Source: an archaeon (GTDB lineage Archaea > Thermoplasmatota > Thermoplasmata > JAJSAE01). Taken from it: 38,172 nt of DNA. This document shows, one piece after another, positions 16,852-38,172 of this stretch (position 1 is the first letter of the stretch; the number at the start of each line of letters is the position of its first letter). A program made the position numbers and the translations under genes. The stretch spans positions 1 to 38,172 of the forward strand of contig JAJSAE010000087.1 of NCBI GenBank assembly GCA_024281315.1, written 5' to 3'. Below the pieces are notes generated by a model. It did no database searches, was not told where the DNA came from, and worked only from the letters and a program-made list of their open reading frames with translations.

Positions 16852-18213
16852 ATGGACATAGCGCCGTTCAGGGGCATTCACTACAACAAGGAAAAAGTGG
16901 ATATTCAGAGGGTTTTCTCCCCGCCTTACGATATAATCTCTCCCGAGGAGCAGGAGGAACTGTACAGAAGGGACCCGTACAATGTGGTCCGGCTTGTTCT
17001 GGAGAAGATACACGAGACGGATACGGAGGAGAACAACAGATACACACGGGCCTCCGCAACCTTCCGGAAATGGCTGGAAGAGGGGGTCCTCGTTCAGGAT
17101 AAGGAGCCTTCCATATACATTTATGAAGAGGAATACACAATCCACGGCCAGCACAGGAGAATGAGGGGCTTCATGACCAGAAGCCGCATCTACGATTACA
17201 AAGAAGGGGTTGTCCTGAGACACGAGCAGACCCTCAAAGGGCCCAAGATAGACCGCCTGAACCTCATGAGGGTCTGCGGCGCAAATTTCAGCCAGATATT
17301 CATGCTCTACCCGGATAAGGAGAAAAAAATAGATGCTATAATGGATTCCGAGGCGGATTCCCGGCCTCCCGACTTTGAGGTGCGGGATAAGAACGGAGAC
17401 TGGCACCGCATGTGGATACTCTCGGATAAGGGGAAAATACGGAAGATTGTGCAACTGATGAAACCCCTAAGCGTTTACATCGCGGACGGACATCACAGGT
17501 ACGAAACCTCCAGAAACTACAGGAACGAGATGAGGGAGAAATATCCGGACCATACGGGCGAGGAGGCCTTCAACTTCAATCTGGTGCAGTTTAACAACCT
17601 TTACAGCGAGGATATAACCATTCTGCCCACCTACCGGCTAATCTACGGCCTGAGGCAGGAAGATACGGCCCCTGAAAGCATCAAAAGGATGGCGGAGGAA
17701 GACTTTACATGGGAAACAGTGGAATTCTCGTCCGGCAATGCGAAAGATATGGGGCTAGAGGTTTCGGAAAGGCTGGCGGAGATGGATACAGAGGGGAAGA
17801 AAGCCTTTGCGCTCTATTTTTTATCGGACAGCGGAAAGTACCATCTCCTGACCCTGAAATCCCTGAAGATTGCCGATAGGATTTCACCCGACAAACACAG
17901 GAGTCTGAGGTATCTGGACGTCTCTCTCCTGCACGATGTTCTCATAAAACCGGTATTTGGCATAGACCAGAGCAACCTTGAGAAGCACATACACTACACC
18001 CCGTCCCCGGAGAACGCTATTTCTTCTGTAAGAGAGGGGAGATATCAGGCCTCCGCATTCCTCAACCCGACAAAACTGGTGGAATTGAAAGAGGTCTCAG
18101 AGGCCTTCCAGAACATGCCGCAGAAGTCCACATACTTCTATCCCAAGCAGATAACCGGTCTTGTTTTCAATAGAATAGGCCCTGAGGAGAGGGTCGAAAG
18201 ACTCGAAAATTAA
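16852..18213 (+). CDS. DUF1015 family protein in the serine operon
   Basis: This 453-residue protein of the DUF1015 family has the typical opening IAPFRGIHYNKEKV...VFSPPYDIISPEEQEELYRRDPYNVVRL, and a central VYIADGHHRYETSRNYRNE. The DGHHR motif recalls the ParB/Srx-fold proteins SbnI and SerK, archaeal SerK being a free-serine kinase. DUF1015 genes often follow serC and serA in anaerobes. No serB-like phosphatase is in this operon, so a phosphoserine/serine interconverting role is plausible but unproven. No signal peptide is present, so it is cytosolic. The start at ATG 16852 follows GAGGTG. It ends 11 bases before an IS remnant. Confidence 0.85.
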   Translation: MDIAPFRGIHYNKEKVDIQRVFSPPYDIISPEEQEELYRRDPYNVVRLVLEKIHETDTEENNRYTRASATFRKWLEEGVLVQDKEPSIYIYEEEYTIHGQHRRMRGFMTRSRIYDYKEGVVLRHEQTLKGPKIDRLNLMRVCGANFSQIFMLYPDKEKKIDAIMDSEADSRPPDFEVRDKNGDWHRMWILSDKGKIRKIVQLMKPLSVYIADGHHRYETSRNYRNEMREKYPDHTGEEAFNFNLVQFNNLYSEDITILPTYRLIYGLRQEDTAPESIKRMAEEDFTWETVEFSSGNAKDMGLEVSERLAEMDTEGKKAFALYFLSDSGKYHLLTLKSLKIADRISPDKHRSLRYLDVSLLHDVLIKPVFGIDQSNLEKHIHYTPSPENAISSVREGRYQASAFLNPTKLVELKEVSEAFQNMPQKSTYFYPKQITGLVFNRIGPEERVERLEN

Positions 18214-18224: not shown

Positions 18225-18558
18225 ACTGCTGTGTTGCACAAGTGAGAAGGGAGAGATGTACATATATCTCGATTTCATCGAAAAATGGAAAACTCGAAGA
18301 ACAAAACAAAGGAAAGAAAGGCAGGGTTATGGAAAAAGGTGGGCTGTTGAAGGTGTGTTCTCTTCTGTTAAGAGAATATTCGGAGAAAGCGTAAGGGCAC
18401 ACACCCAAATATCAGCATTTCAGGAGGTGAAAAGGAAGTTTCTGATATATAATATGCTGATGAATCTGTAAAAATCAGGTAAAATATTCCATAACAACGG
18501 AACAAGTTATGGAATCTTGATGGGGTTCCATAACTCAGAGCGAGTTAGGCAACACAGT
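18225..18558 (+). mobile_element. Internally deleted IS5-like element
   Basis: The 334-bp remnant has ACTGCTGTGTTGCACAAGT at the left and, inverted, AGTTAGGCAACACAGT at the right. The same tip appears at 38034 (GCTCTGTTGCATAAAT) and, inverted, at 28112-28128. Only the 3' end of the transposase remains. A stem TTCCATAAC/GTTATGGAA (18487-18514), with a third copy at 18526, lies behind the transposase and may act as its terminator. Family assignment to IS5 is inferred from tip sequence and transposase C-terminus. Confidence 0.7.
18256..18471 (+). pseudogene. Transposase C-terminal fragment (DDE, IS5-like)
   Basis: About 45 residues are recognisable as the C-terminal end of an IS5-family DDE transposase: YGKRWAVEGVFSSVKRIFGESVRAHTQISAFQEVKRKFLIYNMLMNL, with the W-E-FS-KR-GE pattern and final YN. 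The rest of the protein is missing. The first 25 residues of this ORF are charged and not confidently transposase. Confidence 0.75.
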
Positions 18559-32900: not shown

Positions 32901-34928
32901 TTAAGGTTGAGATTGGCGCCTTCTTCTCACCAGAACGAGGGCCGAAACGACCAGTAGGGGCAGTAGCACATCCGAGAACTCCGGCAGGGGCGTGGGGGCA
33001 AGCGGAGCATTCCTCGTACTGCCGTGCTGCATGGCACCCAGAGATATGGCACTATCAGTTACATCCGAATTGTGCCCCCAGTCTGTGGTTACAATTACTG
33101 CTCTCACACTACCGTTGGCCGCAGTCATGCCGATATCGGAAAGATAAACACCTGTCTCCAATTCGTTATGTCCTACCGCTGCATCTATGCTTCTCACCTT
33201 TGTCATCGAAGGATAGGTATACAAATTCGCGCCTGTTACAATACCATTAATTCCGGTTATGATCGCAACATAATCGGCGGAAATACCATAAACAGCAGCC
33301 CCTCCATCCACGGAGTCTATGTAAATCTCGGTTATATCTTCTCCGCTGACTCTGGCTTTTATTACCTGCGGATTGCCGGCACCCGAGCCTGCGCCCCCGC
33401 TACTTTGAGTCTGGACAAAGGGTATAATATCTCCGCCGAGAGCCGTTCCGTCAGGCATTACTTTCATGTAGAAGTAGGCGGCGTCCGTGTCACTGGTCGC
33501 CGCATAATCGGTTATATCTATGTTAGAGTCGCTATTGGGAGTTACATCGCCCTGTGCATCGGCTGTTGGTTGGATGTCGGACCAGTCCGCAAACGCTCCG
33601 TCTATGTGGACCCCCATGGGGGCCGTATTAACATATCCCGCAGCAACGCAGTCGAAAAGAGACACTGTTCCCACATCCGTGGATATATCTGCCGCAGACA
33701 AAGAGACGGATATCAGGTCTCCGTCCGCTGCGGAACCGGTATCTGCCGTGATATAAATTGTTCTGGCCTCACCCGCATTCAGCGAGACGGGCGGTATGTC
33801 AGTAAGGGTTCCGGAACCCGTAAGACGGGGAGAAAAATTGACTGTTATGGGGGTCTGCTGCGCCCTCATTGTCACCTTTATCATCTGCACGCCCGCTCCT
33901 CTTTCCACTATCCCGCCGTTTACCATGTCTTCGCAGGTCACCTGAAGTGCCCCTTTTTCCATGCTTATCGGGACGCTGGCGGGATTACTGATATCAGCAG
34001 CCGCCCCCCTTGAGATCCAGTACATCTGGAAGTTGTCGGAAAGTTTCGGGTTGAAATTATAAGACGGAACCTTCATCTCGATCTCGTTGCCGTGAGCTCC
34101 GCTTCCTATTGCCATAGCAGGGGTGCCTATGCTCGCCCATGCACTCCAGTTGTGTGTATCAGTGGAAGAGCCGTAGGTGAGAAGAGACGCGTGATTCAGG
34201 CTCTCAGGCCACCCGTAAATCTCTATAAGATAGTCCGCACCCATGCCTCCGACATCATAGCCTGTGGAGGGATTGTTATCCGCATCAATGAATCCGTAGT
34301 ATGCGAAAACACCAGAGGTGGAACTTATCGCGTCTCCTACCTTCAGATATGCAAAGAGCGAGCCGTCCACGATATTGACAGCGTATTCTTTCATATCGAT
34401 GACATTATTCGGAACAGACATACTGTCCGTGTACTTCGGAACATCAATCCAGTCATCAAAATTCCCATCTACGGCAGGGCCGGCGGCCACATTGCCGGAA
34501 GGGGCAAACATTACGGCAACCGAGGCAAGGAGCATGATGAAAAGCACTATGAGAGAGACTGCTGTTCCTTTTTTCTTCCGCCTTGTTGTCCGGGTCGGTT
34601 TGATAGAACCGTTCGACCCGTTGCCATTGGTCAATCCATTACCATTCGTAAGACCGTTACCGTTAGTGAGGCCGTTACCATTGGTCAATCCGTTACCATT
34701 CGTAAGACCGTTGCCGTTAGTGAGGCCGTTACCATTGGTCAATCCGTTACCATTCGTAAGACCGTTGCCGTTAGTGAGGCCATTACCGTTGGTCAATCCG
34801 TTACCATTCGTAAGACCGTTGCCGTTAGTGAGGCCGTTACCGTTGGTCAATCCGTTACCATTCGTAAGACCGTTCTCGCTCTTTTTGGATCTTCCACTGT
34901 TCTTTCTCCCCCTGTTTTTCTTACCCAT
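32901..34928 (-). CDS. NGLTNG-repeat surface protein with PEF-like C-terminal sorting signal
   Basis: This 675-residue protein begins with a basic start (MGKKNRGRKNSGRSKKSE), 14 tandem NGLTNG units, TRTTRRKKKG and the helix TAVSLIVLFIMLLASVAVMF. Outside beta-domains follow: VDGNFDDWIDVPKYTD ... YGSSTDTHNWSAWASIG ... IEMKVPSYNFNPKLSDNF, a central CARDB-like segment, and a second VHIDGAFADWSDI module. The C-terminus LPEFSDVLLPLLVVSALVLVRRRRQ has the PEF-hydrophobic-basic layout of archaeal PEF-CTERM sorting signals. The NGL tail is on the cytosolic side before any cleavage. The first beta-domain is paralogous to that of the 31696-32586 protein. GAGGTG marks the start, 9 bases after the zinc-ribbon gene, so the two share an operon. 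Function unknown; cell-surface role inferred. Confidence 0.83.
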   Translation of the reverse strand: MGKKNRGRKNSGRSKKSENGLTNGNGLTNGNGLTNGNGLTNGNGLTNGNGLTNGNGLTNGNGLTNGNGLTNGNGLTNGNGLTNGNGLTNGNGLTNGNGLTNGNGSNGSIKPTRTTRRKKKGTAVSLIVLFIMLLASVAVMFAPSGNVAAGPAVDGNFDDWIDVPKYTDSMSVPNNVIDMKEYAVNIVDGSLFAYLKVGDAISSTSGVFAYYGFIDADNNPSTGYDVGGMGADYLIEIYGWPESLNHASLLTYGSSTDTHNWSAWASIGTPAMAIGSGAHGNEIEMKVPSYNFNPKLSDNFQMYWISRGAAADISNPASVPISMEKGALQVTCEDMVNGGIVERGAGVQMIKVTMRAQQTPITVNFSPRLTGSGTLTDIPPVSLNAGEARTIYITADTGSAADGDLISVSLSAADISTDVGTVSLFDCVAAGYVNTAPMGVHIDGAFADWSDIQPTADAQGDVTPNSDSNIDITDYAATSDTDAAYFYMKVMPDGTALGGDIIPFVQTQSSGGAGSGAGNPQVIKARVSGEDITEIYIDSVDGGAAVYGISADYVAIITGINGIVTGANLYTYPSMTKVRSIDAAVGHNELETGVYLSDIGMTAANGSVRAVIVTTDWGHNSDVTDSAISLGAMQHGSTRNAPLAPTPLPEFSDVLLPLLVVSALVLVRRRRQSQP
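34623..34874 (-). repeat. 14-unit tandem repeat (18 bp) in a 54-bp higher-order pattern
   Basis: Fourteen 18-bp units each encode NGLTNG. Units come in three synonymous types in fixed order (plus strand: ggtcaatcc, cgtaagacc, agtgaggcc), giving a 54-bp higher-order repeat of four full cycles plus two units. Differences between units are synonymous. Confidence 0.92.
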
Positions 34929-37975: not shown

Positions 37976-38061
37976 ATAAATGCCTCGAAACTGCCCAATA
38001 CGGCGGTTGGTTTTAAAGATTTCGGTAATAAGTGCTCTGTTGCATAAATACTTTTATAAAG

Positions 38062-38110
38062 CCATGGTGCATATTCTTCCTTATCCAACCATGGAAGGGA
38101 TGCACCATGG
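38062..38110 (+). promoter_or_regulatory. 11-bp inverted repeat sequestering the transposase start codon
   Basis: CCATGGTGCAT (38062-38072) and ATGCACCATGG (38100-38110) are perfect inverted copies with a 27-nt loop. The right arm contains the transposase ATG (38107). A transcript starting from the element's own TATA box (expected near 38083-38087) would lack the left arm. Confidence 0.75.
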
Positions 38111-38172
38111 CCGAAATGGAGATACAGAAGAAGTATATAAGAAATTGGTCTGAGTATAATGAAGGCCTTGTG
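38107..38172 (+). CDS. Transposase N-terminus, truncated by window end
   Basis: Only 22 codons are visible: MAEMEIQKKYIRNWSEYNEG LV. The WSEYNxxLV pattern is typical of IS5-family transposase openings, and the C-terminal fragment at 18256-18471 is probably from a related copy. Confidence 0.65.
   Translation, partial: MAEMEIQKKYIRNWSEYNEGLV

Follow-up and report, generated by a model that had tools for sequence, protein, structure and literature searches.

A hairpin that may hide the transposase start codon of an archaeal IS5-family insertion sequence in read-through RNA

What might an inverted repeat do when one of its arms covers the start codon of a transposase gene? The question is raised by the last 140 bp of a 38,172-nt stretch of archaeal DNA (the window), which belong to the left end of an insertion sequence (IS). 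A preliminary description proposed that the repeat folds over the start codon in RNA that enters the element from outside, and only there, as in the bacterial elements IS10 and IS50.

We found that the element is present in at least 33 copies, as judged from 33 left ends in the source genome. In a comparison of left ends within this genome, the copies are identical from TGCTCTGTTGC onward and the flanks before TGCTCTGTTGC are unrelated. We found 32 right ends; one extra match of the first search, on contig C101, is a right end and thus lies outside the left-end count. All of these ends are at or near contig ends; that is, the element interior is unassembled and there is no full copy. Perfect 8-bp target duplications join left and right ends in 20 pairs, and the right partner of the duplication at this locus (GTAATAAG) was looked for and was absent. 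Terminal inverted repeats of 15 bp together with the target duplication are as in the IS5 family. The NCBIfam model NF033579 (IS5 family transposase) matches an N-terminal piece of the transposase (64 aa, E 5.5e-9) and a C-terminal piece (45 aa, E 2.2e-7), both of them fragments that fall below the full-length cut-off. A full-length relative, L083, scores above it (173 bits; cut-off 140). Based on these sequence features, we assign the element to the IS5 family. The preliminary description had called it an archaeal IS, and the IS5-type transposase pieces, the terminal repeats and the archaeal host genes agree with this; the gene for ribosomal protein L40e, on the minus strand, adjoins the element. 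Homologues were judged from the 64-aa N-terminal piece (the version in L009). In family- and order-level searches, the source genome alone was represented. No relatives were found in viral contigs. Elsewhere in the window (18436-18477), a 42-bp relic matches the right-end region of the IS at 83% identity, and a small inverted repeat comes directly after it.

The hairpin is real. It starts 28 bp inside the left end of the element (Table 1), and its arms are perfect, as had been claimed, and 12 bp long, one more than claimed. The start codon (ATG, 38107-38109) lies within the right arm, also as described. The stem is extended inward by a second helix of 7 bp. Folding of 38062-38110 gave -26.4 kcal/mol (z -5.57), and none of 200 shuffles reached this. 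The window has just one other perfect inverted repeat of at least 11 bp with a loop of 3-45, an unrelated 11-bp repeat at 17226/17267. When the 93-nt region was shuffled with dinucleotides preserved, 3 of 3000 sequences held any perfect repeat of at least 11 bp (about 0.001). An intrinsic terminator was ruled out; the stem is followed by CGAAATGGAGATAC, without a U run. The best match in Rfam, sRNA162, was rejected (23.5 bits; gathering score 78).

Table 1. Positions of the features discussed, in window coordinates
Feature	Position	Strand	Basis
BRE and TATA box (CGAAATCTTTAAAACC) of the L40e gene, abutting the target duplication	38009..38024	-	flank scoring
8-bp target duplication GTAATAAG, left copy	38025..38032	.	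8-bp duplications in 20 other pairs
Left end of IS5-family element, running past the contig end	38033..38172	+	copy identity from TGCTCTGTTGC, unrelated flank, NF033579 matches
Terminal inverted repeat TGCTCTGTTGCATAA	38033..38047	+	matches right end ...TTATGCAACAGAGCA
TATA-like box TTTTATAA, putative transposase promoter	38052..38059	+	sequence; kept in relatives
Left arm GCCATGGTGCAT, between TATA box and predicted start	38061..38072	+	perfect-repeat search, folding
Inner helix, 5' side, loop type A only	38074..38080	+	folding
Predicted transcription start (range 38073-38085)	38083..38083	+	TATA centre plus 26-27
Inner helix, 3' side, loop type A only	38093..38099	+	folding
Right arm ATGCACCATGGC, holding the start codon	38100..38111	+	perfect-repeat search, folding
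Transposase ORF, first 22 codons (MAEMEIQKKYIRNWSEYNEGLV...)	38107..38172	+	64-aa version in L009

Which RNAs could form this hairpin depends on where transcription starts. A TATA-like box lies just before the left arm, and it is kept in both loop types of the source genome (see below) and in the relatives L084 and L092 (TTTTATAA), with TTTATAA in L171. In archaea the distance from TATA box to start is usually 26-27 nt, so the native start is predicted near 38083. If the AT-rich stretch of the terminal repeat were used instead, the start would be near 38073. With either start, the left arm would be outside the native RNA. From the TATA box we infer a transcription start downstream of the left arm, and the earlier view that the two arms flank the expected start holds for this predicted position.

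We modelled the energy needed to open positions -15 to +6 around the start codon in RNAs with different 5' ends. With the 5' end at 38060 or before it, the modelled cost was ~20-23 kcal/mol; it was 17 at 38066 and about 6-13 kcal/mol for 5' ends from 38069 on; that is, it fell sharply once the 5' end passed 38066-38069. With the real flanks of 29 copies, covering both loops, means for read-through and native RNA were 22.3 versus 10.0 kcal/mol for loop A and 18.7 versus 9.5 kcal/mol for loop B. The model thus supports a start codon that is locked only when the 5' end of the RNA is upstream of about 38066. The preliminary description had the start hidden in read-through RNA only, and the modelled lock does need such a 5' end, but the predicted native RNA is not open: its start region would be partly folded (about 10 kcal/mol) by local CCAUGG pairing.

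This residual structure is one reason to consider that the fold damps translation of all transposase mRNA, with its specificity for read-through RNA incidental. RNA from 38083 would still need about 10 kcal/mol to open, and other members of the group have a hairpin, probably transcribed in full, with the start codon in its loop. However, the strong stem requires the left arm, which is sited between the TATA box and the predicted start, and without this arm the cost of opening falls roughly by half. We regard general damping as unlikely.

We favor, as the probable and best explanation, a silencer of the transposase gene that is specific to read-through RNA. The element's own promoter would start RNA near 38083, beyond the left arm, and this mRNA, lacking the arm, could be translated, though at a low rate. 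Transcripts arriving from a gene on the left would carry both arms and form the long stem with the start codon buried in it, so a copy that had landed in a transcribed place would make no transposase. This reading builds on the observed arms, their retention around differing loops in copies and relatives, the start codon in the stem, the modelled openness and the excess of start structure in IS5-type leaders; it holds if RNA starts where predicted, folds this way in vivo and is then poorly translated. Weighing against it are the residual folding of the predicted native RNA and, as described below, the absent covariation, the mismatches of L092, the Methanolliviera homologues and the relics that retain the arms. 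In the window, a topoisomerase gene runs in the direction of the element and stops 97 nt short of it, making read-through RNA plausible. The nearest long ORF has this orientation in 14 of 30 copies, by mechanical ORF calls. If the silencer is real, the same protective solution arose with an archaeal TATA promoter, and it bears on how an archaeal IS restrains itself while reaching 33 copies.

Both arms are present, unchanged, in 32 of the 33 left ends of the source genome. The remaining one (L095, on C15) can be read only to the left arm, 29 nt from the contig end. Two unrelated loops separate the arms: loop A (TTCCTTATCCAA) in 18 left ends and loop B (ATAGTTGTCAAATCACAAAAA) in 14. That is, the loop has been exchanged among copies and the arms retained. 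Because the copies are clonal, their number is weak evidence, and we rejected counting them as independent.

The arms also occur in relatives from three other genomes, where the loops and spacings differ. In L084, whose protein is 72% identical, the arms surround a 40-nt loop and the inner helix is longer. In the arms of L171 one U-G replaces a C-G, and in those of L140 one G-U replaces a G-C. The arms are kept in L139, L166, L168 and L169, with loops that are different or much longer. In two degenerate elements the arms are interrupted, by one break in L141 and by two in L167. Relic copies that have lost the transposase coding sequence retain the arms as well. The changes among relatives are thus wobbles or breaks. 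A formal pair count over eight distinct leaders gave 96% paired cells, but there was no covariation: none of the pairs had changed on both sides in these eight, and shuffles reached every value. The check for covarying arms that the preliminary description had proposed was therefore negative. Its expectation of complementary arms in other copies held for the source genome and failed in part in the relative L092, where two left-arm positions are mismatched without compensation; folding of L092 still pairs the start codon. The Methanolliviera homologues examined had no such hairpin.

Some of these relatives have features of their own. Genomes G036 (L139-L142) and G045 (L166-L169) contain derivatives that are short or broken but share the ends of the element; in several of them the arms enclose long inserted hairpins. 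The nearest relative outside the source genome, L084 (G400:C77), is on a contig end in a metagenome-assembled genome (MAG) labelled WOR-3 bacterium; the contig is either misbinned or a case of transfer between domains. At a right end of the IS (L096:1-137), an inverted repeat TAACTC..GAGTTA lies immediately inside the terminal repeat, and a similar repeat is found in the short derivatives of G036.

The repeat could instead work as DNA, with half-sites for the transposase or a repressor over the core promoter and start. Archaeal repressors commonly sit between TATA box and start, which is where the left arm is, and the persistence of the arms in relics without a transposase gene fits such a site, as do operator-like compact dyads between TATA box and ATG in L054, L055, L059 and L062. 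However, arms that are 27, 36, about 40 or >100 nt apart among copies and relatives are unlike a site for a dimer, and they are absent from the right end of the IS (L096). A compact dyad operator would have a fixed spacing of half-sites, and the loops here range from 27 to >100 nt. We consider a DNA site quite unlikely.

Structure at the transposase start is not confined to this element. The mean folding z was -2.23 for 39 IS5-type leaders, mostly of the same class, versus -0.24 for 97 ordinary gene starts, with z < -2 in 51% versus 4% (Mann-Whitney p 2.5e-8), and opening the start region cost a mean of 11.3 kcal/mol in 38 leaders versus 6.1 in 21 window genes (p 4e-6); these p values are optimistic in that start codons of homologues were picked by eye and some of the 39 leaders are related to each other. 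In some related leaders the start codon is in the loop of a hairpin, and the arms, which are partly coding, change together (TGATTGG..CCAATCA in L192, GATTTGTTG..CAACAAATC in L195, GATTTG..CAAATC in L077).

L073, L190, L192, L193, L195-L197, L200, L201, L203, L077, L078, L176, L177 and L179-L182 carry a pair of leader hairpins; it is the second whose loop contains the start codon, and its arms are lineage-specific yet complementary. Compact dyads of unrelated sequence lie between TATA box and ATG in L054, L055, L057-L062, L173 and L206, and these could be RNA hairpins or, equally, DNA operators. L063 was rejected as a start-hiding leader; its best fold leaves the start free. In L080 and L191 the starts are covered by unrelated arms, but with z values for opening energy (0.66 and 1.5) that are not strong. 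L071 is in a broken gene and its start structure was set aside.

A chance repeat without function, spread by clonal copying, would be consistent with near-identical copies in one genome whose number is not independent evidence, with the absent covariation and with the unrelated 11-bp repeat at 17226/17267, but it is improbable given its rarity in region shuffles, the retention of the arms in L084 and in other relatives whose loops defy alignment, and the excess of start structure across the IS5-type group.

The read-through silencer would have a reason to exist if the element chooses its neighbors. We scored flanks with a leave-one-out matrix against background (in G000, L001-L030, L093-L095 and L099-L128; in the window, 38009-38032). 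In all 20 complete insertions, an A-rich BRE directly follows the 8-bp duplication on one flank, with the BRE at 10-13 bp and the TATA box at 16-22 bp from the IS end and oriented outward. The promoter flank was on the left 14 times and on the right 6 times; it scored above the 95th percentile of background in 20/20 and above the 99th in 17, and both flanks were above the 95th in one case only. Several left flanks of relatives, Methanolliviera included, have the same placement of BRE and TATA box. Because the motif is nearly symmetric, counting inward-pointing TATA motifs is uninformative. From its flanks, archaeal core promoters appear to be the target of the IS, at a fixed distance, which may be more surprising than the hairpin. 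If every insertion is next to a promoter, the element would need protection from stray transcription; promoter targeting, if true, would thus supply the reason for the hairpin. We suggest, tentatively and against our own leaning, that this archaeal IS5 group both homes to core promoters and repeatedly evolved start-codon hairpins against RNA from adjoining promoters and genes, perhaps including RNA from reverse firing of the near-symmetric TATA box.

Self-silencing against read-through has been described for a few bacterial elements. Work by Davis, Simons and Kleckner (1985; cited in PMC2965389) reportedly proved by experiment that Tn10/IS10 is protected from external promoters. In IS10, the distal arm of an inverted repeat covers the transposase start signals and the proximal arm is outside the native transcript. 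In IS50 (Tn5), external transcripts fold and hide the transposase start region, as proven experimentally. The present element resembles IS10 in having an inverted repeat near its left end with the distal arm over the start signals; judging from the TATA box, its proximal arm would lie outside the native transcript. It differs in that IS10 is a bacterial IS4-family element with a sigma-70 promoter, and ours is an archaeal IS5-family element with a TATA promoter, known from sequence and models. External RNA folding over the start would be a likeness to IS50, an unrelated element in an unrelated host. The parallel drawn in the preliminary description is sound as an analogy and does not amount to membership. 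On this analogy, the element would be a new setting for the IS10/IS50 principle. In the open-access full-text literature, of which our coverage was partial, we found no archaeal case of read-through self-silencing.

Other elements hide or shield their transposase genes differently. In IS200 (cited in PMC2965389), the ribosome binding site of the transposase is covered by a leader structure of the element's own mRNA. The leader of ISPpu9 does so as well, and an antisense RNA opens it (PMC8450116). These leaders act in the element's own mRNA, and we propose an action in read-through RNA. We know of no counterpart of the ISPpu9 antisense RNA for the present element. Some bacterial IS carry 5' terminators, or 'mobile attenuators', against outside transcription (PMC2965389). 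Their purpose is shared, in that outside transcription is kept from expressing the transposase, but they stop transcription; here the stem has no U run after it, and pairing extends over the start codon itself.

In a separate part of the window (32901-34928, minus strand), an ORF encodes, close to the N-terminus of its product, many near-identical GLTNGN repeats in a long row.
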